Assembly (NCBI GenBank): GCA_964035545.1
Contig: OZ037765.1
Coordinates: 11,650,698 to 11,714,697, forward strand
Length of the DNA: 64,000 nucleotides
Reading direction: 5' to 3'
Origin: Bugula neritina
Taxonomy: Eukaryota > Bryozoa > Gymnolaemata > Cheilostomatida > Bugulidae
Under the pieces are notes generated by a model that did no database searches, was not told the DNA's origin, and was given only the letters and a program-made list of their open reading frames with translations. Of the stretch, positions 22,201 to 64,000 are shown in pieces. The translations under genes and the position numbers were made by a program. Each line of letters opens with the position of its first letter. Positions within the stretch are counted from its first letter, which is position 1.

Positions 22201-25200
22201 TGAGTTCACTTAACTATTTTGCTTAGTGGGTGTACTTCACGAACGATATGTTAATTTAGGCAATAAATTTCTAGCTCAATTGTAGCTGTTTTGTGGGTGT
22301 TATAGTTATTTATAGCAATTCAAGATTAGAATGTCCCAATAAAGTTGAGCAATTTAGTTCAGAATCAGCAAAACAAGGCTCTTCATGTCATTACATAGAC
22401 AGTAGATATCTCTATTTAGTTATCTGTAATGTATAAACAAGTTGTAAAATAGATTGACAGTCAGCTGAGCATAGAATAATGCAACCTTTTGCTGAATCAA
22501 TAGTTAATAGCTGCTCAAGTCTGCCACGCAGTCACTGATTTCATTGGCATGTCGTAGGGAGTTATATTTCTTCTGTACAGTTGAGCCGATTGAGATGAGG
22601 AGAGCCTAAATTCTAAAACATTCGAGTGTCAGGTCCTTCTTGTTTATTAACTTTTGCTGTGCATTCACACCATCTAGTTATTATTAACTCTAGAGTCTAG
22701 TTGTTGTGGTTAATGTGGTATTTGTTTGATAAAGGTTTGTGGTTTGTGTTAGTTAATAGATAGTCGTTTTTCGATAGCACTGTCCAGCGTGAAACTGTGG
22801 GTAGCTTGCCAAGTGCCGATCGTCTGTCGTCTGCAGTAGTCGTCTGCAGTGGTTGCCAACTGCGCAAGGCTGCTAAGTTTCTTAATTAACTTATTCCGTT
22901 GCAGGGATTTCCTTGTTTTTAGTCTTGTGTAGTTTTATTCAATAACAATTAAAAGTAGTGACCAGTGACTATTTTTAGAATGTAAAGTTTCCCCCAACTA
23001 ATTGACTTACAGTGATTGCTTGTGTAGTGACTCAAAATCACATATGTATTCCATAGGTTCTTCCCGGGCCATAGTTTTCAGAGATGTCTGACTCATAATT
23101 GTATGAGGTCTGGCAATTGATTAATACAACTAGTGGACCTACACATACATACATACATACAGGACCTAAGCGTACATACGTACAGTCTTCTACTATGCTT
23201 GCTGGTTTGCATGAGGAAATTTCATACCCAGTCATTATTTGTATAAGTGGAAAGTTTGTTATCAGGTAATTAAAGGATAAGATATTAGTAGACTTAAGTT
23301 GTGGTAATGAAGATGTTAGCACTTTCACAAGGTGTCAGCTGGTGTCACTCCGAGTACCTTTAGTCGTTCAACCTTACATATCTACTAGCTGTCACTTTCC
23401 TTTACCTTAATAGCTATTTTTAGCTCATTATAAAACCTAACTTTTTGCTTTATGAAATCTCGTTGCAATATTTTGCCTAAACTATGGAGGTTAGTAAGCT
23501 GGCAGCTCAAATGACTGGACTTTCTAATAGCAAGTGCAGAGTATGTAAACTCAACGTACTAAAGTTGCAGTGCAAACATGGGTTAGAGTGAGTGCATTTG
23601 AGTTTACAGTTTGCTTATATCATTATTGGCTGAATCTCACATTAAATCAACAGGATTTTTATTCCATTTCCTGTTAGTTGTAACGTCTTCCTTAGCAAAT
23701 AACGACAATCAAACGAGTGATGAAACTACGGTCTCTATTTAGGGCATGGTGGATTGACATTACTCTGTACACTTGAGAACATTTGCGATCATGTTCAGTC
23801 ATCAATTGGGTTACTCATATGTGGGTATTGATTACACAGCCTGGCCTCTTGCTCAAGGAACTAACCCAGTGTTTCAATTTTGTAAAGCGTGTTTACTTGT
23901 TGACAGTAAACAAATATAATTCCAATGTACGCTCCACATTCACTCGTTATCAAAGTGAATGTGAACGTTGTTCACGGTGAATAGGTTTACAATGCCTTTA
24001 CAAGTTTGGTATGCATCACCTTCTATTTCTTCACTTTGATGCAGACTGAGCAAGCTTGATCACCCAGTCTTTTCCGCGCTACACAAATACAATAAGAGCA
24101 GGTGATTTAGTTTCATTAGTAAGCTTTTTGGTTCACACCCCACTCCATTTCACTACTTACACTCGTCATCAGAGTTATGAAAGAGGAAACCAATACCTCG
24201 TGCCATCAAGTGTTAGAAAGTGCTATTAATATAATTTCAAGGGAATATTGTTAAATGACAATAAAAGTTGACATTTCCTTAATTGCTTCACCAGTGACCA
24301 ACCTATAGTAGTGGGGAAGAGTTATTTGAGTAAAAAACAACATTTTATTGGTCATTTAAACTATTGATAGATATTTTGAGTTTCACTGAGAGTATTTTTA
24401 GTTGACTGCATTGCTACTTTAGCTAGTTACTAGTTGGGTGTCCACTCTGTTCATTGTTCTCATGTCTAACAAGTTAATAGCATTTCTTCCTAATCTGTAA
24501 AGTCAACGTAGACAGGTACTGTTGATTCAGGTAAGGATTACAGCATTAGGTGTATGATTGAGGTCTAAAACCCATGCTATTTTGATTTCACCAATTTTGT
24601 AGCTGTCATATTAAGATTGAATCTGGGAGATTGAAGGAAGGCTGTTGTAAAGCATTTCTTTGATTGTAAATAGGCTACAAGAGGGTTATTGACACATTGG
24701 GTTCCAGAAATGAAGTGATATATATGCAGTGGGGTGATGATAACTTCTCAAATGTTGTGAACCTGTTAAAAGTTGTCTGCAATGAATGGTTATATAAGCA
24801 GCTCCGAGTTGGAGGTGATTGAGTGCAGTAGTTTGTGGTTCTCGAGTACAGAGTTAAGGGGTTTTAATAAACTCCAACTCCAAACTCCAGAATTGCAAAC
24901 TGCTGCACTCAATCACTCCCAACTCGGCGCTGCTTATAGAACCATTAGTCCTCAATGGATGTTTAGTGAATAATTACTAACTACTAGATATGGGGGGGGG
25001 GGGGGTGGGAGTGCCTAGTTGTTTAGTGGATGTGGAACCCTAATATGTGCTTGGATTAACGCTAAATCATGTCAACGAGCAAGTAGACTTTTTATAATTA
25101 CCAAAGTTGTATGTACTGAATATAGCATCGGTGTATAGTTTACCAACACATCTACGTTACATTCAGTGCTCTCAGCATTTACAATACATCTGTATTGTCA

Positions 25201-34200: not shown

Positions 34201-37200
34201 CAATGATAAATGTAAGTCTAAGTTATTCATTTGGACATAACTTATAGGTGATAATTTTATGATTTAGTAAGTAGATATTTCATAGGAATTTCGATGTGGT
34301 GGTGATGCTGTATGTTATTTCATTATTATGCATACATGTGAATATAGTAGAGGTAACTTCTGCATTGCTATGGGCGTGTTGAGCTGTGTTCTAATAGTGT
34401 TATACTTTCTGTATAAATTATACTAGGTGAGCTGTAAGAGTGCTGAAACTGCTGCTGGGCCGATAGTTGCCTTCTGAGGCCATACTACTGGTGGTTAACA
34501 TTTCACTGTTAAAAGGTCACTAGAAGCCACATTAAGTCACCATCAATGTTTATACTTGCTAAGGCAATGTTATGGTGTTATCACAACCTTACATTAGTGA
34601 CTCTCTAATAACACACAGCCAGCAAGTCAGTCGATTTGCACTCGGCTAGGCAGACATGCTCATTAACAACGCCCTACCTATGTTTTATAAACCTCACTAA
34701 GCTGCATTTCAGCCTACAACTTCTTTTCTGCACCAGTAAGCAAAATTGAAAAGCTTATCAAATCATAATAATCTCCACTTCTGACATTCCTGTCATTTTA
34801 ATGTCTATTTCATGTTTTTGTGGTTTACCAGTAAATAGTCAATAACTATTAGATTCAGTTCTTTCACTGCTACTTTACCAATTTATACTAATGTGATGTT
34901 TATTGTAGCAGTCAGATCTCATAGCTGTGGTAACATTCAAAAAGAACTTTCTCTACCTCCAACCTCTCTAAGATTGGAGGCCGGTGCTGTAGAACACACC
35001 AGTGCATCACCCACTCTCACCCCACCACTTGCATCTGCCGATACCCCACTGCATCACACATCTCCCAAACTCAATAACCACTTCCCTAAGAAGTTACATA
35101 CTCATTCTTCATCTGCCTTGACTGGCTCAAAGCTAGTTGATGGAGCTTTCAGCAGCAATACGTTGCAGCGCGTGATAGCAGGTGACATAGCTGAGCCCAG
35201 GGCGCCAGTTGCCACAGCAGAAGCAGATTCACCAGACTTGGAACAAGTGGATCTTGTGGAGGCGTCCTCAACTTACAGCTCCGACTCTTTTGATGAGGCT
35301 AAAAAGCCAAAACTTCAGCACTCACAGCCATCTACAAATAGTGACTCAACGGTTAGTTTATGGTTCTCTAGATGTGGATAACTTAGCAAAACATACCTTG
35401 CTAGATTACTAAAGCATTAGTTTATTAGCTGCAATTTAAATTTAAGTTGCTCACAATGCAATGTCAAGTGGGAGGTGGGTGTAGCATGCATTTTAGCTAC
35501 AGCCTAACTAATTTGTGAACTGGAGTTTTTCAATGGGCTGTGTTGGCATCTTTGAATTTCCACTATTAAACAGCCAAGGAATTCAGTACAATAGTTAAAA
35601 GTGTGAAGCTTTACAATGGTGATAGATTCTTATCTTTTATTAATGAACTTGGGGCAAGTGCTTTATCTAAGACACATAAATTACTTTTGTGTAATCAAGC
35701 AAATAATTTTTCAGGGCTGTGAGGTTAAAGGAAATGTGAAAAACAACAGTCAAGTAAAATTTTTGCCTGCATATAAAGATATAAGTGTTCAGAAAATGAT
35801 GGAAGACCAATCACCAAGAGCTGTGTGGCACCACAGTAGTAGAACTGTGCACAGATCACAGTCAACAAGGACTAGAAGTCCCCACACCCCTAGCCCCTAT
35901 TACTACAACAACACTGGTACAAACAGCAGGTTGATGGCAGGTGGCAGCAATACTATGAGCAGCAGCAATGTCCATGTTCCACACGGTAGAATATACACAC
36001 CTTCACCTCAACAATTTAGACCATTCAATACTCTTAGTCGAAGCCGTCCTAGCAATGGAAGTATTCGTGTCAATGATGGCACCCATCCCAGGATGCCCAT
36101 GAGGGCGATGCAGCCACAAACTTATCACGGCATCCCAGTGCACCTGCAGGCACATGCTCAGAGGCACACCTCCCCAACAAATTATGACAACAACTATGGG
36201 ACTGTGAGACGAAACCTGCTCAATTCTCAGTCACCCTCTCAGCCTATGAACTACCACCACAAGGCCCAGTCTCACGGCGATATGAGAGCTCACAGAGGGA
36301 GACTTTACAGTGACAATTCTTCTCCTTCCCACCAGCAGGTTGACAGGCACCCACAGGTGTCTACAAGTATTAGAAACTCTAATAGTGAGCCGGATATTGA
36401 ACAAGCCCAGCCAAAGCAGCGACAAATGGGCAGAGCTTATAGAAATAGGATGCATAATGCAGGGAACTATGCCATACCTTCCGGGACTTATGTTGCATCC
36501 AGCAGCATGACTAATATTCCCCAGTTTGCCCAGCTGATGCCTCCAACGCTGGCGTCACCCTCCAGATCAGACTCCTTTGGAACTGTTCAGAGACCACACG
36601 CGCTGTCACTGTCTCCGGACCTTCCCACAGACAGACATAAACACAACTCCCAGAACAGTGCTTACAGCTCACAGTTCAGCTCCTATGAAGATGTGTTCAA
36701 TGACTCATCTCTAACTCGTACTAGAGGGAGCACAACTCCAACTTCTCCTGTCGGCAGACAACCTTCCTATCTGACAGCCATGAACTCTCCATTAAAACAT
36801 CGTAAGATTACCAACAGTGTTTATACTTTCTATTCAATGAGGTTTTCTAGCCAGTTCTCAACCTTTAATTTCTTTCCTAATAATAATAGTAATAGCTTGC
36901 ACCTGGAATGCAACCTATTAACAATCTTACTGTTTTTATGATTTGGTTGTGCAATCCTTTTGGTAAAAAATTGTTCATCAAATTGGTGCTAGTTTAACAG
37001 AAAAACTTGCGTGGATTATTGCCCAAGAATTGCCTACTCAAAAAAGTGGACAACTTACCATATCTGTTTTGTGATGAGTAATGGTACATGAAATCATGCC
37101 GATCCTATTTACAAACCAACAACACCATGCTGTATTGCTCTTATATTGGTCAGCTCATTGGCAGCATTCTGATCAGATATTTGATGTGTAAAGCTACACT

Positions 37201-40200: not shown

Positions 40201-43200
40201 TGCTTGGCTAGTATTTCTTGTGCTCATTTTATATAATGTTGATTCCTGTTTTTGCTTATCCAACCCCTAGACTTTGCAACCTTTTGTAGTTTGGAATGAC
40301 CCTAAGGTAGACCAAGATTTCAGAGTGCTGTCTTTTGTAGTTGATTTAGAATTTTATGCGCATGATTGGTGGTGGGTGATATTTTCTGTAGCTACATTTG
40401 AGCGAAGGACAGGTGTTGAATAATTAATGTTTGACTTTTAGTCTGAGCAACTGAGCAGTGCAGATCTAGTAAAGAGAATTAATGATCAACAACAAAAACT
40501 CAACCAATCTAAAAAGAGGACTCTGGGTAGCCTGTCATTTAAATCCAAACAGCCACACTCTTCGCCCAAAACCAGTGGTAAGTATTCTGCGGATAGATAA
40601 TGCAAATCTGTGGATGTGCATTTATTTGTCTCCTTGTTACTTGCAAAAAAGATAATTCATTAGGACATAAATCAAATTGAACGTTTCTATTTTGGAAAAT
40701 ATTGCAAAAACTGAGTTATTTAGTTGTGCCTGTTGACCATCACATAGCCGTCACTTATTTAGACTCACTGAAAAAGGATGATAAGGACAAAAAGAAAAAG
40801 TTTGGACAAGGCAAGTTTTCACCAGGTGAATACAACTCTGAGCCAGCGTCTGGAGATTTCGGCATTCCCATTCACGAGTGTACTCCGTCTCATGAGAATG
40901 AGTTTATTCCCTTAGTAGTCGAGTTGTGCACCAAGGCTATAGAAGACAGAGGATTAGAATTTGTAGGCATATACAGAGTTCCTGGGAACAAGGCTGCTGT
41001 GGAGCTTCTCAAAAAGGAACTCAATCAGGTATTACACGTTAACAAATGTTTTTTATTTTTATACGCGTAATAAAGTTTACTTTATTGATTATTTTACATG
41101 AACGATAGGTATAAGAGGGGGTGAAATTGCACTGCACATCAATTGTTACCAGAGGTAGAGCAGTGGTAAATACTAAAAAGAAGGACAAAGACAAATTGCT
41201 TAGTGCTTATGTAAAATGAATAATTTACATACTGATTACTATTTTGTTTTGCTAACATTGAACTACAGTCTATTTGAAGATGTATAATCTTATAAATGAA
41301 TATAATATTCTAACTTAAAACACTGTGAGAAACGCCCATGTAGCTCTATAATAAAATAGTTTTTCTTGTTTCACCATTGACCTTAAATTGAACAATGATT
41401 TATTCATAGATAATAGTTTTATCACTTAAGCACATTCTACAGCTTAGTTATGTGCTGCAGAGACATTTTGGCAGTTGCCAAACTTTCAATATTTATTACT
41501 GTGAAATAAGATTCACATATAAATAATGAAAAGCCTTTAATCCAATTGAATTTATTAAATAAATTAAATTCTATGGAACGAATTTGGAAAATTTCACTCC
41601 TTACAATTTTTCTTCTTAAATAAATGCTCAAAATTTTTAGATAGTGCATCAATACTGGTTGATATTTGTTTTAGGGCATTATTGACCTAGAAAATGACAG
41701 ATGGAGAGACGTTAACGTTTTAAGCAGCTTATTGAAAACATTTTTCCGCCGACTTCCAGAGTCACTTGTAACTGCAAAAAAATACAAGGAATTTATAGAA
41801 ACCAACAAGCTGACGGATTCTAAAGCTCGGCTCTTTGCTTTGAAAAAACTTCTTGCCTCATTGCCTGAGTATAACTTTGAAACTCTGAAATATTTAGCTA
41901 TTCATTTAAGAAAAGTAGCTGAACATGGAGAATTAAACAAGGTAACATAGTCTAGTATATATTTAGTTATGCACACCATTGAAGATGGTGTCAGCTATCT
42001 TGCTATGTGGTTTTTGTCAGTATTTATAATCTTGTCATTCATCATAGTTAAATGCATGTTATGCAGTTTCTGGTTATACTTTTAAAGATGGACACAAGGA
42101 ATCTTGCCATAATATTTGGGCCAACAATAATCAGATCTGGGGATGCAAGTTCTGATGATGTCAGGGAATTGATAGCGGACATGTCCGACCAATGTAGAAT
42201 TATGGAGACTATGATCATATATCATGAATGGATATTTTCTGCTACTGACTCTGAACCTCCAGCTTTAGACGAAGCTGACATAACTGCCTCATGTGCTCCT
42301 ATCAGCGAAACAATAAACAACATGAGTGCTGATATCGCATTAATCACAAATGACAGTAAGCTAGTAATTCTAAATTGGTAATATGTATAAATACAGGATT
42401 AGAAAAAATAGAAGTTGATTAATTTACTGCTCTAATTCATCAATGTTGTGTTCTTTAATTGATCCTTATCTGGTTTAGTTTACATATACTTCCTAAAATC
42501 ATTAATTTGATTGTTATATTACAGAAAAGAAAAGTGGCTCTCAGCTGATGTCGGCCTTTTCCAATGCAGCCAACAGAAATATTAGCAAACCTTTAATGCC
42601 TTCTGATTCTGTTCTTCCAAACAAGCCAGAGCAGGATGATGAGCATGGATTTCGGAGCCAAACTCTTCAACAAGAGGCATGTTGTACTCATATGGTTATA
42701 ACTTGTACAGTTTTGAAGCTACCTACTTGAAAGGCTGACTTCTCATTATTTAGTATTGAATTACTTGTCTAATGATTTTCGTAGTTCTTCCAACATCTAA
42801 ATATGTTTAGAGCTTTAAAAACATTGAGGAAAAAATTGATTTTTTTCATGGAATGCAATTTTCCATGCCACCATCTACAAGATCATATCCAGATGCATTA
42901 TCTTTACAGTATATGTTTACCTAGCATATGCTCCTCCAATCACATACCTGAGCTCTTTCACTAGTCAGCTAAAATCACTCCGATGAGTGGCATGTAATTT
43001 ATTTTATAAAAGCTATAAAACAATGTATCGAACTATTGAATTTCAATAAATTTACAGCCATGGAAATGGTACCAAATACTTTAAAGTATATAAATTTTTG
43101 TTAATGGAGACACTGAATATATTTTTCACATTTTTAATATGTAACTTTATTCTATTTTCTAGGTTGCTGCTCGAAACCAGAAGCTTATGGAGGTAAGAGT

Positions 43201-44584
43201 AGAGAAATCTAGAGAAGCGTGGCGTGTGTCCCAAGAAGCTCAACCTGCCACAATAGCCGATCAATTAGGTAATGAGGTTTACATGCATCATCCCAACTTA
43301 CACAGATGGCAATCTGAAGAATCAGTGTTAGCAACTGGTGACCACCATAGGGTAACACACAACTTTTATCCTTACCATGCAGAGTATAAACAGATGTCAA
43401 CATCTGATAGACAATCTAATAATGGTACTCCACCTCCTCCCATTCCAGCTCGAGGTGCTACCTCGAAACCTCCACTTCCTCCCAAACCGATGCAGCTTTA
43501 TCATGCAACACCAACCCATATAGAAGAGGACAATCTCCCTAACAAGTTCTATGAAAATTATGAGCACTTGCAGTTAGAAATGCAACCAGCAAAACAGCCC
43601 AGGACACTGCGTATAATACATAATCAATTGAAGGGTCCTAGCTTCCGAAGAGGTTCGTTGGACTCTATGATGGATAACCTCGAGTCATTCCAAAACTATT
43701 CCTCAAGTTCTAGCACAGAATCACATGATGGTTCAGATCTTCTATCTAGTTTGACCACCACATTTGACCAAAAACTTAAGTTATTAGTTGATCCGAAGTA
43801 TTGTACAGATAGCCAAGGTAACAGGAGGCTAAAAACTAATAGTGACAGCTCCAGTGTTAGTAGCAGTGCTTGGAGTCATCGAGACCCAGTCTCACATCAA
43901 CCGTACAACAGTGTATCCGATCAAAGCCGGGAAAGTCTGCTGAGCATTCTCAGTAATAAAGAGAATATGCATGGCTGCGAGTCATTTTCTTCTAATCAAG
44001 ATTTCGAACCTGGTTATTCTGGGTCTGCTTCCAGTTTAGGGAGCCTACCTCATCGCCATGAGGCTAAAATAGGCATAGCCTCTAGAATAGAGCGGAAAGA
44101 TATCAAACCTTTGGTTTATGCACCTGTATACAATTCATCCGTTACTAGAGTAGTTAATGCAACAGGTAGTGTAATCTCTAACAATCAGAGTAATGTGGAA
44201 GATTTAAATAGTGAAGAAGACAAAGATTATGCTAACAATAATGCAATAGATTATCATGGCGCGCCTTATAAGCACCGTAAAATAAGTCAAGAAAAGAAGC
44301 GAATTCGGCGTCGACATACTGTGGGTGCAGCAGATTTTAATAACTCATTAGTTAGCCATAAGCAAACTGATGCTAGCCCTCTTACTCCGCAGGAAAGTCT
44401 CTCAGCTTGGCAAAGGTTGCAGCCTGGTGGTGGTATGGAACCATTGGGTTTCAAAGGCTGGATTGCTAAAGAAAGGTGTCGAGCAAGTTCACCAGAGTTA
44501 CATAGTCATGTGACACCCAATATTATGCATATACATAAAGTGGACCAATCTTTAGTCAACTCTCTTTTAGGATCACATATGTAA
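10484..44584 (+). CDS. ARHGAP21/23: Rho GTPase-activating protein 21/23-like (PDZ-PH-RhoGAP), complete
   Basis: Switches off Rho-family GTPases by stimulating GTP hydrolysis; relatives act at Golgi and cell junctions. Exons: 10484-10595, 11382-11541, 13222-13273, 13924-14023, 28210-28398, 34909-35351, 35715-36801, 37342-37431, 37903-37996, 38114-38375, 39051-39263, 40442-40577, 40763-41028, 41675-41941, 42088-42355, 42525-42676, 43163-44584. They total 5313 nt, or 1770 aa plus TAA. Domains: PDZ about residues 10-107; long Ser/Pro/His-rich disordered region about 205-775; PH about 818-934; RhoGAP about 1012-1210; SH3-ligand-like proline run (PPPPIPAR) near 1387. A C-terminal motif, RRRHTVG (about 1679) followed by WIAKERCR (about 1730), matches the end of vertebrate ARHGAP21/23. 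PH rather than C2 between PDZ and GAP excludes SYD-1/RhoGAP100F. The 42677-43162 intron uses a GC donor. The start is supported by an upstream in-frame stop in the candidate 5' UTR exon. Small extra exons inside the long introns cannot be excluded. Confidence 0.92.
12450..12960. repeat. Imperfect inverted repeat, possible degenerate MITE
   Basis: The left side (12450-12535) contains TTTGGCTAAATTT and, further in, CCCAGTTAGACGCTATTT. The right side (12889-12940) reads back as TTTGGCTAAATTC, CACATGGACGCTTCC and GATTAGACGCTATTT. The arms match in order but with gaps. The short word GACGCTTCC/AGACGC also recurs outside the arms (12940-12965). No target-site duplication is clear. Confidence 0.4.
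19640..20760. repeat. Degenerate AGTAT/ACTTA-rich low-complexity tract
   Basis: Dense in short words such as ACTTATA, AGTATTAGTA, AGTAATA and ACTTAAAGTTA, without a fixed period. It resembles the hexamer arrays at 48770-50500 and has probably decayed from similar simple sequence. Confidence 0.45.
23143..23160. repeat. CATA microsatellite
   Basis: ACATACATACATACATAC, 4.5 units of a tetranucleotide. A related CGTACATACGTAC follows about 10 bases later. Confidence 0.8.
24785..24946. mobile_element. Short foldback/MITE-like element with about 50-bp inverted arms
   Basis: The arms 24793-24835 and 24896-24938 are reverse complements over 43 bases with about 4 mismatches (TATAAGCAGCTCCGAGTTGG against TATAAGCAGCGCCGAGTTGG). 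Pairing continues outward to AATGGTT/AACCATT, so the unit is about 162 bp with a 60-base loop. There is no coding content. It is either a small non-autonomous DNA element or a long RNA hairpin within the ARHGAP intron transcript. Confidence 0.6.
24992..25005 (+). repeat. G14 homopolymer
   Basis: Fourteen consecutive G followed by TGGGAG, in an otherwise AT-rich intron. It could form a G-quadruplex, and its length may be a sequencing or assembly uncertainty. Confidence 0.85.
28874..29109. mobile_element. hAT-type MITE, 236 bp
   Basis: The left end CAGGGGTGGGCAACTTC and the right end, read in reverse complement as CAGGGGTGGGTAACTTC, form terminal inverted repeats of 16/17 bases. CAGGGGTGGGCAA is a well-known hAT superfamily terminus. 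Flanking 8-bp sequences CGCTAGAG (28866-28873) and CCCTAGAG (29110-29117) match at 7 of 8 positions, the target-site duplication length of hAT elements. No transposase is present, so the element is non-autonomous. Confidence 0.85.
31640..31900 (+). promoter_or_regulatory. Possible internal promoter or alternative first exon of ARHGAP21/23 (weak)
   Basis: A CpG- and GC-richer patch inside the AT-rich 6.5-kb intron, including TTTTTCGCGATCGACC at about 31667. A strong donor-like site (CATTG|GTAAGTAAG) follows at about 31690. A first exon here would give a transcript lacking the PDZ exons. This is inference from composition and one splice site only. Confidence 0.2.
38114..39263 (+). other. PH domain of ARHGAP21/23 (two exons)
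   Basis: Exon 38114-38375 carries TGILAVKIV, SWRGMGAVLSRDMLYLVRDK (strands 1-4). Exon 39051-39263 carries INIIACFVAIAHSYTKKRHV, FKLRT, EYLFQAEDDDDMVDWVKAIE, which is the closing strands and C-terminal helix with its invariant Trp. The pattern matches the ARHGAP21 PH/ARF-binding region. The basic GWL-type first strand of vertebrate members is weak here (TGILAV). Confidence 0.88.
40763..42355 (+). other. RhoGAP catalytic domain (three exons)
   Basis: The domain begins at FGIPIHECTP. It contains the arginine-finger loop GIYRVPGNKAA (Arg about residue 1049), then WRDVNVLSSLLKTFFRRLPE, LPEYNFETLKYLAIHLRKVA, and MDTRNLAIIFGPTIIRS with the conserved asparagine after NLAI/FGP. It ends near YHEWIF. 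All signature residues of an active RhoGAP are present. Confidence 0.92.
42677..43162 (+). other. GC-AG intron in ARHGAP21/23
   Basis: The frame runs open through ..LQQE and then needs a phase-0 junction to VAARNQKLMEVRVEK. The only donor that fits is GAG|GCATGT, paired with the acceptor TTTTCTAG|GTT. The nearby GT at CAT|GTTGTA has the wrong phase. GC-AG is the commonest non-canonical U2-type class. Confidence 0.7.
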
Positions 44585-49589: not shown

Positions 49590-49745
49590 TGTAGTTTTAG
49601 AAACAGAGTCACTCTCAGAGTGACACTGACTGGGACTCTGGGAGAGTGAGCAATGCTCACGCCTCACACTCAGTCCCACAGTCCTGAGTCACTGTCAGTG
49701 TCACCACAGTCACTCTGACTCAGTCATTGTCAGAGTCCAGGCCCT
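49590..49745. repeat. GC-richer degenerate (AGTSAC) array
   Basis: Words such as GAGTCACT, CAGAGTGACACTGACT and GTCAGTGTCACC repeat with G/C exchanges. Base composition is clearly richer in GC than the flanks. Many short stretches are self-complementary (ACTCTCAGAGT), so the tract could fold. Confidence 0.6.
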
Positions 49746-49794
49746 AGATATGGGGATTTGAAGCCTGAAGCTGAAAGCCAAAGAGAATAATCAT

Positions 49795-49935
49795 TATTCA
49801 TTAGTATTAGTATTACATTTACTGTATTAGTATTATTAATAGTATTACTATTACTATTAGTATTATTATTACTATTACTATTAGTATTACTATTAGTATT
49901 AGTATTACTATTACTATTACTATTAGTATTAGTAA
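49795..49935. repeat. Hexamer array (TATTAS)n
   Basis: About 20 consecutive units of TATTAG or TATTAC with some triplet slippage. The G and C versions alternate irregularly on the same strand. Confidence 0.8.
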
Positions 49936-49959
49936 CTGAACATGAATATCAATAGACAT

Positions 49960-50500
49960 ACTGTGATACTGATACTCATAGTTTCAATATGAATATAGAA
50001 ATATCCTCTATAAGTCTTGCTATCACTATGAGTATGAATTATGGGTATCAGTATGAGTATGAATATCAGTTTCACATAAAATGTAACTTGCATTGAATGT
50101 AAAACTGATAGTCAGGCTCAAACTGATCGACTTACACTTATGGCCTAGTGTATCAGTATCAGTATGGCTATGAGTATGACTGTTACTGTTAGTCTTAGTG
50201 TGAGACTGTAAGTGTACAATAAAATTAAACATAGTATTAATTGTAACACTATAAGTATGGCTCATACTCCTAAGGATAATGATAGTCATAGTGATAATTA
50301 TAGTCACGCTATCATTATTAGTCTGAATATGATAATGGTGATTGTCTTGGACTATCAGCTTCAGTATGACTATGAGTATTAGTGTCTAACTCTATGACTA
50401 CTAGTATTCGTGTTACCATATTAAATTCAATGCAGATATGACATCTTGTTCATGATTATCAAGATCACTATGATTATGAATATTAGTATCAGTATGAGTA
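49960..50500. repeat. Degenerate hexamer array (TATSAN)n
   Basis: Units such as TATCAG, TATGAG, TATGAA and TATGAC recur in clusters (about 49960-50080, 50150-50200, 50335-50390 and 50460-50505), separated by decayed sequence. Same G/C exchange pattern as the neighbouring arrays. Confidence 0.65.
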
Positions 50501-54702: not shown

Positions 54703-55396
54703 TTTCCATAATGACTTGACCAGTGTGTAGTTTGAACTGTATAATTATTATTTTCATTATTGATATCCACATTGTATTTATACTAAATATGCCTTGTACT
54801 CATCTTAACACCCTCGGCTGCTTGTATCTATATGAGGGCTTGCCAATTACAAAAAATTAAATTCACTGTATGTTTTTCAACAGTTGGTGCTAAGTTTTTT
54901 AATTGGTTATCTTTTTGGAATTTAGTCACAATTTTAAAACTTTAGATATCTAATATTTCTTCAAGATTGCTGATCAAAATTTACTCCATCTGCCCAACAT
55001 AAAAATGGGTGTATTGGTGTGATTTTTTTTCTTCAAAATTGTCTTTAGTATTATACTTATAATATATTCCAAATAACCTATTTAGAGCTTTAAAACTAAA
55101 CTCTAATTGTAACTCGTTGTAGCAACATTAAAAGTAATTATTGCATAGTAAATACTATACATGTACAAATTAAAAAAGATATTTCAAATAATAATTGAAT
55201 GCATTATTTAAGCACATATTATTACACTTTAGGAAAGCCATTTTTGCTTTTATACATTGATAATTTTTTTGTTTTTATATTGTACATAACTTGATACTAA
55301 ATAGAATAAGCAAATCTCAAAGATACAAAAGTATTAGGTGCTAGATTTTCTTTTACTTAGTTATTCTGGTTTACATTAATTTTAAATTTTAAATAA

Positions 55397-55402
55397 TTTA
55401 TT
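55397..55402 (-). promoter_or_regulatory. Candidate poly(A) signal of the LANCL gene
   Basis: TTTATT on the plus strand reads AATAAA on the minus strand, about 280 bases after the LANCL stop. Confidence 0.4.
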
Positions 55403-55477
55403 TTAAAAATATACTATTCTGACACAACAAAAGGCTATATTTTGAAGATATAGCTTTTAATTTAAGTACTTGTCACA

Positions 55478-55483
55478 AATAAA
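55478..55483 (+). promoter_or_regulatory. Candidate poly(A) signal of the ankyrin gene
   Basis: AATAAA in CACAAATAAAGTATCAG, about 775 bases after the stop. It is the clearest canonical signal on this strand. Confidence 0.4.
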
Positions 55484-55679
55484 GTATCAGTACTTTTTGC
55501 CAACTTCTATATCTATTATGAATTACATATTTCTGATGAAATACTATTCTGTAAATTTGGCAAATAGATAAAAAGTGAAATAGAATATTATAATACGGAA
55601 CTACTTAACATGTAGAATCGAGTATTAATATTAATGACATTTCTGAAAAATACTATCATACTATTATGTGGATGTCAGA

Positions 55680-58600
55680 TCATACTTCAAAAGCGGGGAA
55701 CTTTGACGCAGCAGGACTTAAGATATCGTACAGGAAGTATGCGGTACCAGCCATTCCTACAAAAAGCACTAGCAAATAAAACACTTCAAATCTACAACAT
55801 TGTGCGTATTTATTAGTTCTACTAACAAAAGGCCTTAGGAAAATCCTACCTTCAAATAAAGAGTACGGCCTGTCCGGTGTACGACACCCATGTCGCCCAT
55901 AATCACAGCACCACAAGGCAAACTGAAAAAAAAAAACTTTCAGAAAGTAAAGTTATGCTCATAGACCAACTGCAATAGTTTCAGATATTATTTGATGTCT
56001 TCACAAGGTAATTGGATATTACAATGTAAACTTGAAAGTTGAAAATAAATATAATATCAAATATGCCAATATCCGACTCTTTGAGAGCAAATTCTACTAA
56101 CTTACTAAGTAATAATAATAGATTATGCAATAGCATAGTATTACAAGTCTAGCACTTTAGCTCAAATCTGTGAAGCTGATGAAATGAAAAAAAATTAATG
56201 AGCTGAGATTCGGCAAGTGCTAATTTATTTTTGTGTTGGCAAAATTCTGTCATAAAATATGTATTAGACAGAAACACAAGTATTCTATAAACTTGATTTA
56301 ATATTAGCATAATATAATAATTACCTGACAAGCTCTGTGAAGATGCTTTTTATCTTCGGAAAGCTTGTAGAGACTGAGAAATGTGTATGCGTTCCCAGCA
56401 ACACCATGGCAGATTCCATATCCTTTTTTTAATAACCCTCTTTTCCAAACAACATCCCCGCATGCCATGGCTGCCTGTTTGTAATTTTCATTCTTGTATT
56501 TCTACAGCAAGAATAAGTAGTTGCTCAAGCTATATCATAAATGCCTTAAAAATTCATGCAATATAACAAAATTAATCATATCTTAGTGCCTAACTAGACA
56601 AAACTAAGGGCTTCATAAAACTGATTGATTGATTTATTACATATCACAAACATGACAACACGTTGCAAAATTCAGTGTAAATACTGGCTATAATAAGTAG
56701 GAATGAACAAAAATAAGAGAAAAAATCAAAACTCTGTTGGATTATTTAAAATAAAAGCTCATTTAAAGTATTTACAAGATGCCGCAAGAAGCTATCTCTG
56801 CCCCATGCCCCTCTATATTTGATGGTTCGATATCTTCCAGAAGGGCATTGACTAAGAAAGTTGTTGATGAAATGGTCATTGTCTGTTATATATTTGATGG
56901 CAAGTTCTTTAGTGAGTTTCTGAATGTGCAAATCAATGTTTAGATACTTAATTCCGAGTTTTGAGCAATCTTTGAGAATTCTTCGAATAGCCTTTTTATC
57001 ACTGGCATAGATACAAGTAAAAATAGTAGGTAGACAATAGGCGATGCGGGACATGATGAAACTTTTGAATAGCATATTTGCTAGAGGTTTAGAGCTAAGA
57101 TACGCAAAATTCTTCACAATATACATTCTTCTTGATGCTGTTGTTACTACTGATTGTACATGTTCATGAAATCTCAAATTCTGATCCACTAACACACCAA
57201 GATATCTCACTTTTTCAGACAATACAATGTTTGTTCCATTCAATACGAGAGTAGGGGTATGAGGTTTAGCACGTTGGGTTGAGAACATCATTTCTTGGGT
57301 CTTGCTAGGGTTTAATAATAGATTTAAATCATCACATTGCTTAGAAATTCTTTTAATCTCGTCAAAGTAAATATTTAGATCAGACTGTTTGCCAATGCAG
57401 CCAATAATGCAAGTGTCATCTGCATATTTAATTACGGTGATGTTGCTCTGGCTTGAGGTAATCCTATTAGTGTAGATAGAAAACAATAGTGGAGATAAAC
57501 AGCACCCTTGGGGAGTTCCTGTGTTAGTTATGATTGGATTTGATGTTATGCCATCCACTACTGTGCGCTGTACTCTGTTTGTAAGAAAGCTGTAAATCCA
57601 CTCAGTAACATTGGAGTCAAGATGAGTTAGTTGCGTAATGAGGTCTGGAATAGATATAGTATTGAATGCAGAAGAGAAGTCTAGAAAGAGGCACCTTGCG
57701 TAATTGGATGCTTTCTTATCAATGAAACTTGTCACAGTTGTAGTTAGACATAACAGCGCATCTTGTGTAGAGCGATTTGTACGATATGCGAACTGATATT
57801 TGTCCATAGGTGTATAAGTTATAATGTAGTGTTTGATGAGCCTTTCCAGCATTTTGCATATACAGCTTGTGAGAGCAATTGGACGATATTGTTTAAGTAG
57901 TTCAGGATTTTTGACTTTAGGAAGTGGCTTGATCATTGCAGATTTCCATGAATTTGGAGTTGTCTTAGATTGGATGGAGAAAGTAAACAGTTTTGTAAAG
58001 ACAGGTGCTAGTTGATAGCAGCAGATTTTTAAAACTTTCGGAATGAGACCATCAGGACCTGCACCTTTTCGTGAGTTTAGTCCCTTTAGCTGTTTGAGAA
58101 CAGCGTCTTCTGATATTTCCAATGGAGGTGCACTGATAATGTTTCTATCAAAAACAGGCTGATGAGATATAGGCTTTTCATATCGGGTGAAGAAGGTATT
58201 TAGGTCATCAGGTGTAAATGGGTTAGCTTTAGCAGTAGTTGTCTTGCTGTGTGGTAGACCACTTATTTTCTTTATATCAGTCCATGCTTTGGCTGGTTGA
58301 TTTACTAATTGTAGTTGAATTTTCTTAGAGTAATTAACTTTGCTGTTGGTTATAGATCTGGTGATGTCACGTTTGAGCTTATTATATAGTTTACGGTTTC
58401 CATCTTTGTGGGCTACTTGTTTTTGATAGATCATTTCTGTAATATGTTTAGTAATCCAAGGTTTCTGATTGGTACATGTTCTGAAGCTTTTCGTGGGTAT
58501 GCAAATATCTGTGCAGAAGTTTATATAGTCTGTTACAATTTCAGTTTGTTGATGGATGTTATCATCATCAGAGAGCAGATTATTCCAGATAGTAATGTCC

Positions 58601-61600
58601 AATGCTGCTTTCAGCTTTTCACAGTTCTCTTCAGAATATATACGTCTGGTGACTCGAGTTGGTTTGTATTTAGATAATGGTGTGTAGGTTGGTATGAGAT
58701 GTGTTATAAAGTGATCTGACCCACCAAGCTTTGCAAGTTGATGGCATTGTTTGAAGGCATCTTTGATTCTGATATAGCATTTATCAAGAATTTTATTGTT
58801 GCGGGTAGGTGTTTTGACTGTTTGATAGTATCCATCAAGTTTAATCGGAAGCTGATTAAAGTCTCCCATTACAAAAATGCAAGAATCAGGGTGCTTTTTT
58901 TCTAGTTCTTTAACATGTGTTGATATTGTTTTAGCTGTGGATGAAGCATTTTGTTTTAGTCTAGAAGCACCGGTGAAGGGAGTATAGCATGAAACAGTGA
59001 TAATTGAAGTAAACTCTCTTGGAAGCCAGTCAGGTCTTGATTTAATTGTCATAATTTCACAGTGATTGTCCATATAGTTGAATATAAGATTGTTATTTGT
59101 TGACCATTTGTTGTCAATATAGACTAGAATGCCTCCTCCACAGGTTTTACCGCTAGCATCTGGAAGTCTGTCCATACAGAACTGCTCATAACCTTCAAGC
59201 TCAGTTCTTGAATGTAGCACATCTGGAGTAAGCCAGGATTCTGTTATACAAATAAGCTGAGATTGGTTACTAAGTCTTTTAGTTTTAAGGAGACCATGGA
59301 GTTCGTCGAGTTTATTTCTTACAGATTGTGCATTAGTGAGCACAACTGCAGGTAGTGGTACTTTACCAGTTTTAGTACTGTGGTTGACTCTAACTCCGCC
59401 ACGCTTGCCCCTCTTTCTAGATCGAAGAAGTCTCGGATCAATAACCTTTACTGCGTGTTTGTAGTTAGTGTTCCAAATATCTTTCAGCTGATGTCGAGTC
59501 ATAGAGCTTTTAATATCCAACAGAGCTTGATAATCCATAATAATATGTTCAAGGCCTTTCACTCCTCTTGGCTTGTAAATGAGGGTGATTATAAGCCAGC
59601 ATAAACAAAGGCTGCAATAACTGCGCCACAATGTCAACAGTAAAAGCATTACAGAGAGCATTGAAAACACAACCTCCCTCTGCGAGAGCCAACTGCCAAA
59701 CAAATAACAAATTAAGCAGCGAGTAGAGAGAATTGGCTTAAGTTTTAACAGCATTACTTAAAATCGTAGATCTAAAACTTATCAAGAATAATGCAGATGA
59801 AGTTTTAATCAAAAGATAGAGACCTAACAGCTAGCAGCGACTAGTTTAACATTCAGTACGCCTCCAACTTCCATTTTTTAACAGTTGAGCGACAAAACAT
59901 AACCAAATCTGCTAAAAGGCAAATTTTGATAAAATTAACATACAAGCCGAAAATGTCAAACCACAGAATATAGAATGCCAATAATGGGTTTGAACGTACA
60001 GAGCAGTGTGGGAGGGAACCCTTCTTAACTAGGTCAACTTTAAAAAAGTGGCTGGATAGTGAGCTTAGCATAAGAACTCATACCATACTACACAGGGGAT
60101 CCCTTGCTAACACTGTTCAGTTGTACTTGCCATCAGCAAGCAACTTTAGTTAGAATGAGTTTTGTTCACTTATAGTTTGTTATATAATATTTAGGTTACT
60201 TATTATAGTAGACCAAAAAACCGGATATGATTATCATGTAATGTTATTTCCTTTACACTAGCTAAATTTTTATATAGCTAAAATTTTAGTTTTACTTGAT
60301 TAAAATTGTACTAAATGAAATGTTGCTAATCTTCAGTTAATGATATCTATAGTTTCATACACAAAAATACATTTTACTATATTAAATAACAAGATTCAGG
60401 AGGGCCCTTGTTGCATCAAAATCTGAATGTTTCCTGTTTGTAAGAAACATCATTCACTCTAAAGTCTCTACTAATTAATATTAAATTAAAATTGAGCAAG
60501 TTTTGTTAGCATAAACTAACCTGATAGGCTGCAACAAGCATATTCACAAAGCCAGGTGCTCCATGACACCAGTGAACAAGTCTATCTCTTTCACCACTCT
60601 CAAAAGAAGATGGGAAGTTACCAGAAGGAAATTGTAAATCAACTAGATAGTCTATCGTAGGTATCAGCAGAGAATCTATATTCAATTCAGGATATTTGCA
60701 GACAACCTACAAAGTAACTCAAATATTCTAAAAACACGTTAAAAAACCACCACAAACAAAAATGGTGGTAAATCAGTTAAAACAAAGTTGAGTTGACAAC
60801 AAAGATGATCAGTTCATGTTATAACTCTCAATAAAATTCTGAGTTTAGCTATAATATACTAGAAACATTTTAGATTAGTAATTAATTTTATTACTAACCA
60901 CATAGTATAAAACTATTCTCAAATCTATAAAACCAAAATATATTTGCGAATGACCAGTCTTCAAGTTCGCCTTTAATATAATTTGAGCAACGCTGGTATA
61001 GTATTCAACAGCAAAGTTTTTCATATCTGAGTTCACTAGTACCTTAAGCAGCAAATATATTATGCCAGCATAACCATGTGCTGCTCCATAGTATTGCTTG
61101 TCATGCCAAGTGAAAAGCAGAGGCAAGCTTTGTCTACAATTCTTAGCAGCTTGTGAACCACACATAACAATGGCTTGAGCAACCTTTGTTGGAGAGAAAA
61201 ATTAAAGCAATTATCACAAAAATGTAAAAATAACACTCATCACTTGATTCCTCAGACTTCAAGCTAGATAAACATTAAATAAATTCTAATTCTTATTTCT
61301 TTATTTATTGGTGACAATTTTTATTGTGAAAAGTAGCTAAAAGCTAGAAATGAGAAATCAAGTGATGATATAAAAGGAATCAGTGAGTCACCTTAAGCAG
61401 CAAGTAGATGATACCAGCATGGCCATGGGCGGCCCCAGTGTAATACTCATTATACCAACTGTACATTAGGGGGCATCTACTCTTTAACTGTCCAGATAGC
61501 TGATGGCCAAATTTAACTATGGATGTGGCTACCTGGTACAGCCAAAGATTGAGATATATACAAGTTAGAAAACATCTGAACAGTAAAGCATGTTTTTTTA

Positions 61601-63502
61601 TTTCTAATTGCAGCATTCACATATTTTTTGTTTCTAGCAACTAGCAAAACAAACATGATAAATATTAAACTAATGGTTAAAATCGGCTTTAATGATTTTA
61701 CGATTAAATGTTACATTTGTTAGTATTTAAGATTGAATAAAAGTGTAAACAGATCTATTTCACATTTTGTGAAAAGTATAAAACTTTTGTAGAAGCACCT
61801 ATATGGCTTGCTACCTCCCCCCAATAATTGAAATTATAATCTATCGTATGTAACTCTTGTATTACTACCATACTTACATTTATTATGCTCTGTTTGCTGA
61901 TAGTTGTCTCCCCTAACTCAGTCTGTAGTAACAACAGAGTGTATAAGTAGCCAGCCCGACCATACAGCAGCTCATTAGGTAAGCTAGAGCTTTCACACAC
62001 TTCTTTTTCCATTTGAATAATCCTAGTGAGCAAACCAGACATACAATGACATCAGAAATTTTCCTTTTCAAATCCAACACCAATTTGTGCAGTTTCAGCC
62101 GCCTTACATATTCTTTCGTTAAACTGAATCGCATTTTATGGCCATAGTTCTATAATTTGGCATTAATTGTTGCTAATATAAATGGAACCAGCAACATGAA
62201 ACATTGAATATGTATCAGAGAGCAAGTGTAAACCCTAATGCAATATGTTACTGTATCTTATAAACCTGGCAATACATTGATCTCTTTGGGTGATGTACTG
62301 AGTACCAAGTCTGTTATATGCCAAAGCAGCCACTGCCAACGGACCACAGTCTCCACACAGGAAGGTACAATCTTTATGTTTACCTCGCAAATGTTTAAGC
62401 GATGCTTGTACTAAATCTAAAGCTTTCTGGGAGTTTCCTAACTTTAGGCAAAGCAATGCTACACCTGTAAATATAAGAACATAATAATTACAAAACACTA
62501 TAAATGAATAACATTACTCTACATTCGAGACAGTGCTTATTAATGCTGAACAAAGGGCATAATGATGGCAACAGCTGGATTTGTCTTCTCATTCTCAGCT
62601 GCAAAAGCTTTTATAATAATTACTTATTGACTGTTGCTCTCGAAAGTTTAAACTTCGATTCTATTGGTTAGTAGTGTTTTAGAGATATGAGTATGTCTAG
62701 CAACTCATGTTGATAACATTACACTAACAAACTGATTAAACTGATGATGGTATTCAGAATTCTCATCTATCAATTGAGTCTAAAGAACCTTACTCTATTA
62801 CTCAATAAACTGTACAATTATAACTTAAAATACTTCAAAGCTACAGCAGTCAGGGATTAGAACACCCTTGATTAATTAAATATATCCAGCAAAACTATTT
62901 TAGCTTCTGCATTCTACTGAATACTAGTTAATAGTATAAACCTGACAAGTTTATTCAACTGCATATTAGTATTACACTAGTGGAAGCATAAATTTATGAA
63001 TTGAGTGTAAACTATCTTTAACGAAAATTTTAGCCTGCATGCATGTCTCTGATTTATGAGGATACAACACATACTGTAACTTGGACAATTGATCAGACAA
63101 ACCTGAGTAGCCAGTATACACGCTGTAGTCATTTCCATCAACAATAGAGGGATTAGAATAAGCTGCCATAACTTCATTCAGCATCTTGTCTGCAAACGAT
63201 CTTAACTTTGCACTGTAGTTTTCACTCAGACACTAAAATTGTAAAATTTAAACATTGTGAAAATAAATATTTATTATCTAATATTTTTCTTAAAATTGCG
63301 AGCAAATTTGTCACAATAGTTTAAATTTGCAATTTAAAATAGTAATAGCATTTTTATTGCAAAACCACTGAAACATAAGTACGCAATAATATAGAAAGTA
63401 AAACTATTTGCATACTTCACCAGAACTGTCCAACAGGCTATCCACAATACTGCCATAATCAGGTAAATGATTTACAAAAGCTTTTTCATCTATGTTCTCC
63501 AT
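55680..63502 (-). CDS. LANCL1/2: LanC-like protein (LANCL1/2 type), 404 aa, with a duplicated exon
   Basis: LANCL proteins are zinc-dependent glutathione transferases that add glutathione to dehydroalanine and dehydrobutyrine in proteins; they are relatives of bacterial lanthionine cyclases. Exons in transcript order: 63502-63416, 63232-63103, 62464-62266, 62022-61878, then either 61532-61392 (5a) or 61183-61043 (5b), 60706-60521, 56501-56325, 55922-55850, 55756-55680. With one copy of exon 5 this gives 1215 nt (404 aa plus TGA), against 399 aa in human LANCL1. Motifs in order: [40 protein letters not shown] (exon 5), [10 protein letters not shown] (first zinc Cys), [15 protein letters not shown] (second zinc Cys and His), [20 protein letters not shown] and the C-terminal FPAFEV. 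All zinc ligands are present. The N-terminus lacks Gly2, so it is not myristoylated, unlike LANCL2. Intron 60520-56502 hosts a LINE. Confidence 0.95.
56620..59760 (-). mobile_element. CR1/L2-like non-LTR retrotransposon (LINE) in a LANCL intron
   Basis: The element lies on the same strand as LANCL. Its 3' end has a short AATC tandem tail (on the plus strand CTGATTGATTGATTTATTAC at 56621-56640) rather than poly(A), as is usual for CR1/L2-type LINEs. The left boundary is near 56620. The 5' boundary is unclear: sequence up to about 60100 may belong to it, including a 72-codon frame (60071-59853), but no ORF1 domain is recognisable. No target-site duplication was found. Confidence 0.8.
56746..59754 (-). 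CDS. LINE ORF2 polyprotein: endonuclease and reverse transcriptase, 1002 aa, intact
   Basis: Nicks target DNA and copies the element's RNA in place. An APE-type endonuclease starts near residue 133 ([22 protein letters not shown]), with GDFNQLP near 296 and the catalytic SDH triplet (GGSDHFITH) near 345. Reverse transcriptase blocks follow: [18 protein letters not shown] (about 620), [28 protein letters not shown] (about 690), [18 protein letters not shown] (about 745) and the active-site YADD (about 776). The tail contains a Rex/CR1-like RKIL..L segment. No stop or frameshift interrupts 1002 codons. An in-frame TAA lies two codons upstream of the first ATG. The first 70 residues are hydrophobic and unlike a LINE, so translation may really begin at the Met of [10 protein letters not shown]. 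The style of the RT motifs fits the CR1/L2/Rex1 group. Confidence 0.92.
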   Translation of the reverse strand: MLLKLKPILSTRCLICYLFGSWLSQREVVFSMLSVMLLLLTLWRSYCSLCLCWLIITLIYKPRGVKGLEHIIMDYQALLDIKSSMTRHQLKDIWNTNYKHAVKVIDPRLLRSRKRGKRGGVRVNHSTKTGKVPLPAVVLTNAQSVRNKLDELHGLLKTKRLSNQSQLICITESWLTPDVLHSRTELEGYEQFCMDRLPDASGKTCGGGILVYIDNKWSTNNNLIFNYMDNHCEIMTIKSRPDWLPREFTSIITVSCYTPFTGASRLKQNASSTAKTISTHVKELEKKHPDSCIFVMGDFNQLPIKLDGYYQTVKTPTRNNKILDKCYIRIKDAFKQCHQLAKLGGSDHFITHLIPTYTPLSKYKPTRVTRRIYSEENCEKLKAALDITIWNNLLSDDDNIHQQTEIVTDYINFCTDICIPTKSFRTCTNQKPWITKHITEMIYQKQVAHKDGNRKLYNKLKRDITRSITNSKVNYSKKIQLQLVNQPAKAWTDIKKISGLPHSKTTTAKANPFTPDDLNTFFTRYEKPISHQPVFDRNIISAPPLEISEDAVLKQLKGLNSRKGAGPDGLIPKVLKICCYQLAPVFTKLFTFSIQSKTTPNSWKSAMIKPLPKVKNPELLKQYRPIALTSCICKMLERLIKHYIITYTPMDKYQFAYRTNRSTQDALLCLTTTVTSFIDKKASNYARCLFLDFSSAFNTISIPDLITQLTHLDSNVTEWIYSFLTNRVQRTVVDGITSNPIITNTGTPQGCCLSPLLFSIYTNRITSSQSNITVIKYADDTCIIGCIGKQSDLNIYFDEIKRISKQCDDLNLLLNPSKTQEMMFSTQRAKPHTPTLVLNGTNIVLSEKVRYLGVLVDQNLRFHEHVQSVVTTASRRMYIVKNFAYLSSKPLANMLFKSFIMSRIAYCLPTIFTCIYASDKKAIRRILKDCSKLGIKYLNIDLHIQKLTKELAIKYITDNDHFINNFLSQCPSGRYRTIKYRGAWGRDSFLRHLVNTLNELLF
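59761..60520. other. Rest of LANCL intron 6, 5' of the LINE ORF
   Basis: Probably LINE 5' UTR up to about 60100 and then ordinary AT-rich intron. No exon or other repeat seen. Confidence 0.4.
61043..61183 (-). other. LANCL exon 5b (alternative copy, LANCL2-like)
   Basis: Also 141 nt and phase 0/0, acceptor ACAAAG|GTTGCT and donor CTTAAG|GTACTA, 208 bases downstream of 5a. Encodes 47 residues with [20 protein letters not shown] and ends IIYLLLK. It is identical to 5a at 24 of 47 residues. The WH.KQY.GAAHG pattern resembles human LANCL2 as I recall it. There are no stops or frameshifts, so it is not a dead copy. Confidence 0.9.
61392..61532 (-). other. LANCL exon 5a (alternative copy, LANCL1-like)
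   Basis: 141 nt, phase 0 at both ends, acceptor TACCAG|GTAGCC and donor CTTAAG|GTGACT. Encodes 47 residues with [20 protein letters not shown] and ends IIYLLLK. The WY..YY.GAAHG spacing resembles human LANCL1 as I recall it. The His of GAAHG aligns with the active-site His of NisC. Confidence 0.9.
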
Positions 63503-64000
63503 TATTTTTTCTTTTCTACTATTCTAAAACTTGTACAAACTGATGAAAATCTAAAATATAAATCCCAAAGTTAATTTTAATTTCATACACCTAGAATTTG
63601 CCATCAACAAAATAACATAAATATTAGGCAACATGAAAGATGTTTATGCCACTAGATAATAGCAGCTTATTAGCAAAAAATCTGTTTAATGAACTTCAAA
63701 CAAATATCTTTATGATAATAGTATAAATGTAAATTTTTCATATTATTTAATTACTATCAGTAAAACTTTGAAATATAGACCGAGACAAGCCCTGTAGAGC
63801 CAGGACTAAGAAACAAGTGAACCACAACTCTAACACTTATGTCATTGGGTGCACAACAATTCAATATTTGTTAGAGCAATTTATTAATTATTGTAGAGAT
63901 GAATTCCTGCAGCTGTAATTCCATTGATTTAACATTAAAATAGAATCTACGGAACTCCAATTTCAGTGTTTGGTTAACTATGGTCTGCTTTTTGTACCAC
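63503..64000. other. Upstream region of LANCL
   Basis: Should contain the LANCL promoter and 5' UTR (minus strand). AT-rich; no clear core promoter motif and no gene of its own seen. Confidence 0.4.

Follow-up and report, generated by a model that had tools for sequence, protein, structure and literature searches.

Why does one LANCL gene of the bryozoan Bugula neritina carry, side by side, two exons that encode the same piece of its active site? The window analysed here, a stretch of 64,000 nucleotides, holds on its minus strand (63502-55680) a complete LANCL gene of 10 exons, running from start to stop codon, with GT/AG borders at every intron (Table 1). The initial annotation had proposed that two of these exons, 5a and 5b, are alternatives, and that splicing might make LANCL1-like and LANCL2-like enzymes from a single gene. 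Our reading, which we hold with considerable confidence from the sequence, is that a tandem duplication of the exon carrying the catalytic histidine left two copies, which persist as mutually exclusive exons. We regard 5a and 5b as real alternatives for the active-site segment, apparently both maintained, and their mutually exclusive splicing as very likely.

Table 1. Exons of the LANCL gene and elements of the intron between exons 5a and 5b (window positions)
Feature	Position	Strand	Basis or remark
LANCL exon 1, start codon	63416..63502	-	gene model
LANCL exon 2	63103..63232	-	gene model
LANCL exon 3	62266..62464	-	gene model
LANCL exon 4	61878..62022	-	gene model
Exon 5a, 141 nt, phase 0/0, VATSIV...LLLK, Y-x-E type	61392..61532	-	gene model
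5a-5b intron, 208 nt	61184..61391	-	gene model
5a donor and next bases, intron nt 1-18, partly resembling arm A	61374..61391	-	weaker alternative partner of arm B
Hairpin arm A, intron nt 24-41	61351..61368	-	17/18 complementary to arm B; A:B -26.1 kcal/mol
Hairpin arm B, intron nt 138-155	61237..61254	-	partner of arm A or of 5a donor
Candidate branch point TGATAAT, intron nt 176-182	61210..61216	-	pattern match only
Exon 5b, 141 nt, phase 0/0, VAQAIV...LLLK, H-x-K type	61043..61183	-	gene model
LANCL exon 6, HWCHG: zinc Cys and enolate His	60521..60706	-	gene model, residue alignment
LANCL exon 7, zinc Cys-His and glutathione Lys	56325..56501	-	gene model, residue alignment
LANCL exon 8	55850..55922	-	gene model
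LANCL exon 9, stop codon	55680..55756	-	gene model

The anatomy of the pair is largely as first described. The adjacent exons lie where they had been placed, of equal length and phase, both open, with AG/GT borders and with ends on codon boundaries, and they share the claimed 24 of 47 residues (85/141 nucleotides are identical). Either copy alone gives an intact LANCL of 404 residues, so that a single one does suffice for a protein of standard length; the product would count 451 residues with both and 357 with neither, all of them in frame. Because the product with 5a and 5b keeps the frame, a frameshift followed by decay is ruled out as the cause of exclusivity. The splice sites had been called good, which is true of the AG/GT dinucleotides at both exons but not of the 5b donor (AAG/GTACTA), which is weak and scores -0.5 against 4.3 for that of 5a; on the same generic matrix the donors of exons 1, 2 and 3 score 0.2, 1.0 and -3.4 and those of exons 4, 6, 7 and 8 from 3.6 to 4.6 (4.6 for exon 8). 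A repeat search of 60400-62100 recovered the exon pair as 83 nt at 72%. No third copy appeared when each exon peptide was searched against the whole window by tblastn, the matches at E < 0.1 being the exon itself and the other copy. A second LANCL locus within the window was considered and rejected: tblastn of five relatives gave E < 0.01 solely at exons of the gene described here.

The window has other contents. Intron 6 of the LANCL gene holds, on the same strand as the gene, an uninterrupted frame of 1003 aa (56746-59757, minus strand) with a match to RVT_1 (reverse transcriptase) of 114.5 bits, apparently a non-LTR element. The start of a RhoGAP domain lies at 40681-41067 on the plus strand and, with the long open frames of the same strand at 34839-36941 and 43163-44584, may form one gene. 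An inverted repeat at 24785-24946, with arms of 51 nt, is MITE-like.

Exon 5 is not a chance reading frame, because each copy completes the LANC_like domain and because the chains of LANCL1 and LANCL2 align through it, with a gap of two residues. The match to PF05147 (LANC_like) is a single stretch of 280.9 bits in the 5a isoform and of 268.9 bits in the 5b isoform (gathering cut-off 23.2); it reaches 292.1 bits with both exons and 215.1 with neither, in two stretches in each case. The nearest solved structures are those of LANCL2 (6wq1) and of LANCL1 (8d0v, 3e6u and 8czk). According to the available text of PMC9934072, LANCL enzymes protect the proteome through the addition of glutathione to dehydroamino acids. 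For LANCL1 the same text gives His219 as protonating the enolate, Cys276, Cys322 and His323 as holding the zinc, His277 as hydrogen-bonding the carbonyl oxygen, and Arg4, Lys317, His274, His323, Arg364, Asp367 and Glu374 as binding glutathione. The equivalents in the Bugula gene are C281, C327 and H328 for zinc and, in either isoform, H223 for the catalytic histidine, and six of the seven glutathione-binding residues are kept (Arg4 aligns to Lys7). Among these active-site residues exon 5 contributes only the equivalent of His219, all others being encoded by constant exons and, Arg4 apart, conserved.

What the exchange of exons changes is the neighbourhood of this histidine, as had been claimed. 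Ahead of it stands a coupled dyad, made of the residue after a Trp and the residue two further on, which reads H-x-K in 5b and Y-x-E in 5a. Among 142 motifs, drawn from 5a, 5b and 138 listed proteins, two of which contribute two each, the dyad is H,K in 130, Y,E in 7, Y,T in 2, and Y,Q, H,T and H,S in one each; H-x-E and Y-x-K are found in none of the 142. These counts must be read with care, since the motifs are not independent: the 138 proteins are the matches listed (best 120 each) from searches totalling 2685 and 2711, and vertebrate LANCL2 consequently dominates the set. Splicing of exons 4-5a-6 would give a Y-x-E enzyme, with WYNEYY ahead of GAAHG, and splicing of 4-5b-6 an H-x-K enzyme, with WHDKQY in that place; the chemistry of the two forms would presumably differ. 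The idea of LANCL1-like and LANCL2-like enzymes from one gene is thereby retained for the dyad but not for the protein, which as a whole is nearer to LANCL2 with either exon (421.6 against 369.6 bits for LANCL1 with 5a, and 419.7 against 360.1 bits with 5b), nor for the exon, since trees put 5a with the bryozoan exons. Similarly, 5a does recall LANCL1 and 5b LANCL2 in a few motif residues, but over the 47 residues, with the gap placed by hand, 5a is identical to each of them at 22/47, and 5b at 22/47 to LANCL2 and 17/47 to LANCL1.

These likenesses raise the matter of origin. One might suppose that the pair is ancient, early bilaterian, and that LANCL1 and LANCL2 each inherited one of its types, splicing having come first and gene duplication later. 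This concerns where the pair came from and is compatible with the claim on splicing. In its favour, 5a, the second copy found in Timema (see below) and LANCL1 share the dyad, and approximately unbiased (AU) tests do not reject 5a with LANCL1 (p 0.48 unmasked, 0.275 masked), 5a with Timema copy 2 (p 0.376 and 0.144) or all three together (p 0.373), nor do they reject 5a with Watersipora (p 0.367) or 5a with 5b (p 0.095). The trees themselves point elsewhere. They were built from 40 exon-5 segments of 36 of the 138 proteins, hand-chosen for taxon spread (51 columns), from a core of 35 rows (34 proteins plus the window, Gonioctena and Halyomorpha excluded), and, in a masked version of 47 columns, without the four residues that follow the conserved Trp. 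The relative that matters most is the best match of 2685 (2711 with the 5b isoform), the LANCL2 'isoform X2' of the bryozoan Watersipora subatra, at 62-63% over full length; the remaining matches listed have identities of 42-53%, in some cases over part of their length. Exon 5b pairs with it in the unmasked tree (99/87) and 5a joins next (96/84), while in the masked tree the same pair (99/87) lies in one clade of bryozoan exons that includes 5a (97/87), on few columns and with a bootstrap that had yet to settle. This branching order suggests that the duplication took place on the bryozoan line, before the split from Watersipora, and that the likeness to LANCL1 and LANCL2 is probably convergent. 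Homology of 5a with LANCL1 is thus not favoured, for all that the AU tests do not reject the grouping.

In the masked exon tree the passage from H to Y takes at least five changes, which we read as those of 5a, Timema copy 2, Pomacea with Littorina, vertebrate LANCL1 and Halyomorpha. As most named invertebrate matches listed carry W-H-x-K, mostly as a single H-x-K copy, which also speaks against an ancient pair, 5b is probably the older state and 5a the changed one. Among gastropods, Pomacea and Littorina have the W-Y dyad and Haliotis and Elysia W-H-x-K; Pomacea and Littorina may hide an alternative exon.

The closest parallel comes from an insect. In the predicted LANCL2 protein of Timema genevievae (424 aa) one exon-5 segment directly follows another, the first with WHGKYYIGGAHG and the second with WYGEYYVGAAHG. 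Like 5a and 5b, these are one W-H-x-K and one W-Y-x-E segment in tandem, with ends that align to those of the Bugula exons, and we infer their exon borders since they are known from the predicted protein only. The order of the types is the reverse of that in Bugula, and the two Timema copies group together, weakly in the unmasked tree (45/94) and at 98/92 in the masked one; convergence at the dyad would be expected to have this effect. The Timema pair is apparently a separate duplication, and the reversed order and the two separate clades make an ancient origin of the bryozoan pair improbable. Tandem types within one predicted protein are the pattern expected if a gene predictor had joined alternative exons. 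Two other proteins show repeats of a different kind, namely the LANCL1 of Halyomorpha, where two segments occur as in a fusion of larger LanC repeats, and a Gonioctena protein with its C-terminal part repeated; these are possibly further tandem events, or else errors of the gene models. A region search among 182 candidates returned none at E <= 0.001 that resembles 5a and 5b jointly, a weak test that also missed the Watersipora protein, and no relatives were found among genome contigs.

If the duplication belongs to the bryozoan line, are both copies really in use? One of them, most likely the changed copy 5a, might be an occasional cassette or be decaying, the other alone being really used. 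The bryozoan relative examined fits this, as its isoform X2 fills the position of exon 5 with 45 residues of the 5b type only, and so does the fact that 5a alters motif residues identical in 130 of the 142 motifs. The record of Watersipora comprises two member sequences on one contig, and the second may be an isoform X1. Against decay of 5a, its frame is open and its donor is stronger than that of 5b. PLMY, W, Y, GAAHG and AGI are all retained in 5a, and the Y-x-E dyad that it carries is the one of LANCL1, an active enzyme in the available text of PMC9934072. The 56 differences between the copies, out of 141 sites, fall 15, 13 and 28 at the first, second and third codon positions; in 20000 neutral simulations that placed 56 differences at random on 5b, at least 28 third-position changes had P 0.00085, 7.6% of the trials left an open frame and none kept 24 of the 47 residues. 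Divergence between the copies looks purifying (Nei-Gojobori dN 0.41, dS 1.74), with a dN/dS of about 0.24 that is rough because dS is near saturation and that comes from one pairwise comparison, from which we infer constraint on each copy separately. Occasional use or decay of one copy is hence a quite unlikely account of the pair.

Constant inclusion of both exons would give a LANCL of 451 residues with an additional helix-loop-helix. The frame is kept, PF05147 scores higher with both exons than with either single copy, though split in two stretches, and the Timema protein was predicted with both segments. Against this, the isoform of Watersipora carries a single copy, and among the 138 matches listed two segments are found only in Timema and in the fused protein of Halyomorpha. 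Structure also speaks for one copy at a time. The AlphaFold model of the Watersipora protein (mean pLDDT 91; TM about 0.91 to 6wq1, 3e6u and 8d0v) places exon 5 at residues 189-233, which comprise part of helix 183-201, a loop and most of helix 224-237. In the toroid the exon thus spans a loop together with part of an outer helix and the greater part of an inner one, which leaves room for one copy but probably not for a second. In the model of the double-copy Timema protein confidence is high for the first copy and lacking for the additional unit: pLDDT is below 50 at residues 217-245 and 250-257, within or just past the second copy, and by blocks of ten residues it averages 30-57 over 211-260 and at least 83 outside. 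Residues 211-260 hold nearly all of the second copy, and the low values partly reflect that no other aligned row covers them (the structure alignments held 33 of the 138 proteins each). Joint inclusion as the rule seems to us very improbable. An artefact of assembly or a haplotype duplication can be set aside, given that the copies differ at so many sites and that their flanking intron sequences are also unlike. Exclusive choice, as the initial annotation claimed it, is well supported by anatomy, namely by equal length and phase, purifying divergence, a full-length protein with either copy and a single-copy isoform in a bryozoan, and it is predicted for the transcripts.

How would the choice be enforced? 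Pairing within intronic RNA is an established control device for mutually exclusive exons in the available texts of PMC9741552, PMC5740500 and PMC6071210, and structure in the intron RNA would be the likeliest device in this gene. The 5a-5b intron has an 18-nt inverted repeat (17/18) that was reached by 0/300 dinucleotide shuffles, against 64 to 286 of 300 in six other introns of the gene (all but 6-7 and 8-9), which are ordinary. Its whole-intron folding energy is unexceptional (z -2.54, against -2.80 for intron 5b-6 and -2.73 for 7-8). Across the 64 kb 13 repeats reach a score of 13 with a span of at most 208 nt, of which three outscore the 5a-5b hairpin and two tie with it, and eight of these 13 strongest repeats fall in one low-complexity tract at 49.8-50.1 kb. 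That region, delimited as 49600-50130, is a low-complexity tract with many overlapping inverted repeats.

Arm B of the hairpin might also pair with the 5a donor. This pairing is predicted at -16.8 to -17.5 kcal/mol and was matched by 0/300 shuffles, against 2 to 282 of 300 in seven other introns (the 2 being intron 3-4), a result that is not independent of the hairpin test because arm B is common to both. In the predicted ensemble the A:B pairs have probabilities of 0.76-1.0, and this dominance, together with the higher strength of A:B, speaks against a balanced two-state switch; the donor pairing could prevail over the stronger hairpin only with the aid of a protein or of co-transcriptional timing. 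Two effects can be envisaged. With the hairpin formed, the 5a donor would come to 23 + 26 = 49 nt from the best match to a 5b branch point (a second match is at about 58), which is about the steric limit reported in the available text of PMC5740500, where distances of less than 50 are treated as a potential source of steric interference. Alternatively, arm B could cover the 5a donor, so that 5a would be skipped, by the weaker pairing and with the help that it would need. RNA control of exon choice is thus possible, and the hairpin would be its most plausible element. Docking with neighbouring introns was tried and rejected: mononucleotide shuffles equal the pairing of arms A and B with introns 4-5a and 5b-6 in 101 to 192 of 200 cases, and whole introns pair with each other no better than shuffles either (22 to 64 of 100). 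No RNA family was found at gathering score over 55000-64000.

One might go further and speculate that the exon was duplicated independently at least twice, in bryozoans and in stick insects, each time reaching the coupled states H-x-K and Y-x-E that LANCL2 and LANCL1 represent in vertebrates, and that the bryozoan choice is set by arm B, which would pair either with its hairpin partner, crowding then blocking the joining of 5a to 5b, or with the 5a donor, forcing 5b. Taken as a whole this is tentative, and we think it rather unlikely that all its parts hold together. A gene in which nothing but the segment around the catalytic histidine is exchanged, all zinc and glutathione residues being constant, would isolate the effect of the difference between H-x-K and Y-x-E. 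And should the swap have had a separate origin in each of bryozoans, stick insects and vertebrates, its two states would probably represent functional alternatives and not the outcome of drift.

The statement that no report of alternative active-site exons in LANCL genes was known agrees with what we found: the literature on LANCL splicing, exons, isoforms and bryozoans gave no such report, an entry being possible in supplementary tables or in subscription papers, which lay beyond that scope, and the word 'lancl' is absent from the main texts of PMC9741552, PMC5740500 and PMC6071210. The arrangement itself is familiar. Tandem duplicated mutually exclusive exons, as described in the available texts of the same three papers, are neighbouring homologous exons that match in length and phase, of which one enters each protein. 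The docking-site/selector structures of Dscam, 14-3-3zeta and others (PMC6071210, available text) likewise offer one intronic arm a choice between two mutually similar partners. Our candidate, known from a single locus, differs from them in that one partner is the donor itself, that all elements lie in one intron and that one of the pairings is far stronger. The remaining comparison is with vertebrates, whose LANCL1 and LANCL2 share the domain and the catalytic histidine and carry W-Y-x-E and W-H-x-K, respectively, ahead of GAAHG. There the two types are separate genes, whereas in Bugula they are two exons of one gene, whose origin was, by the exon trees, probably independent.
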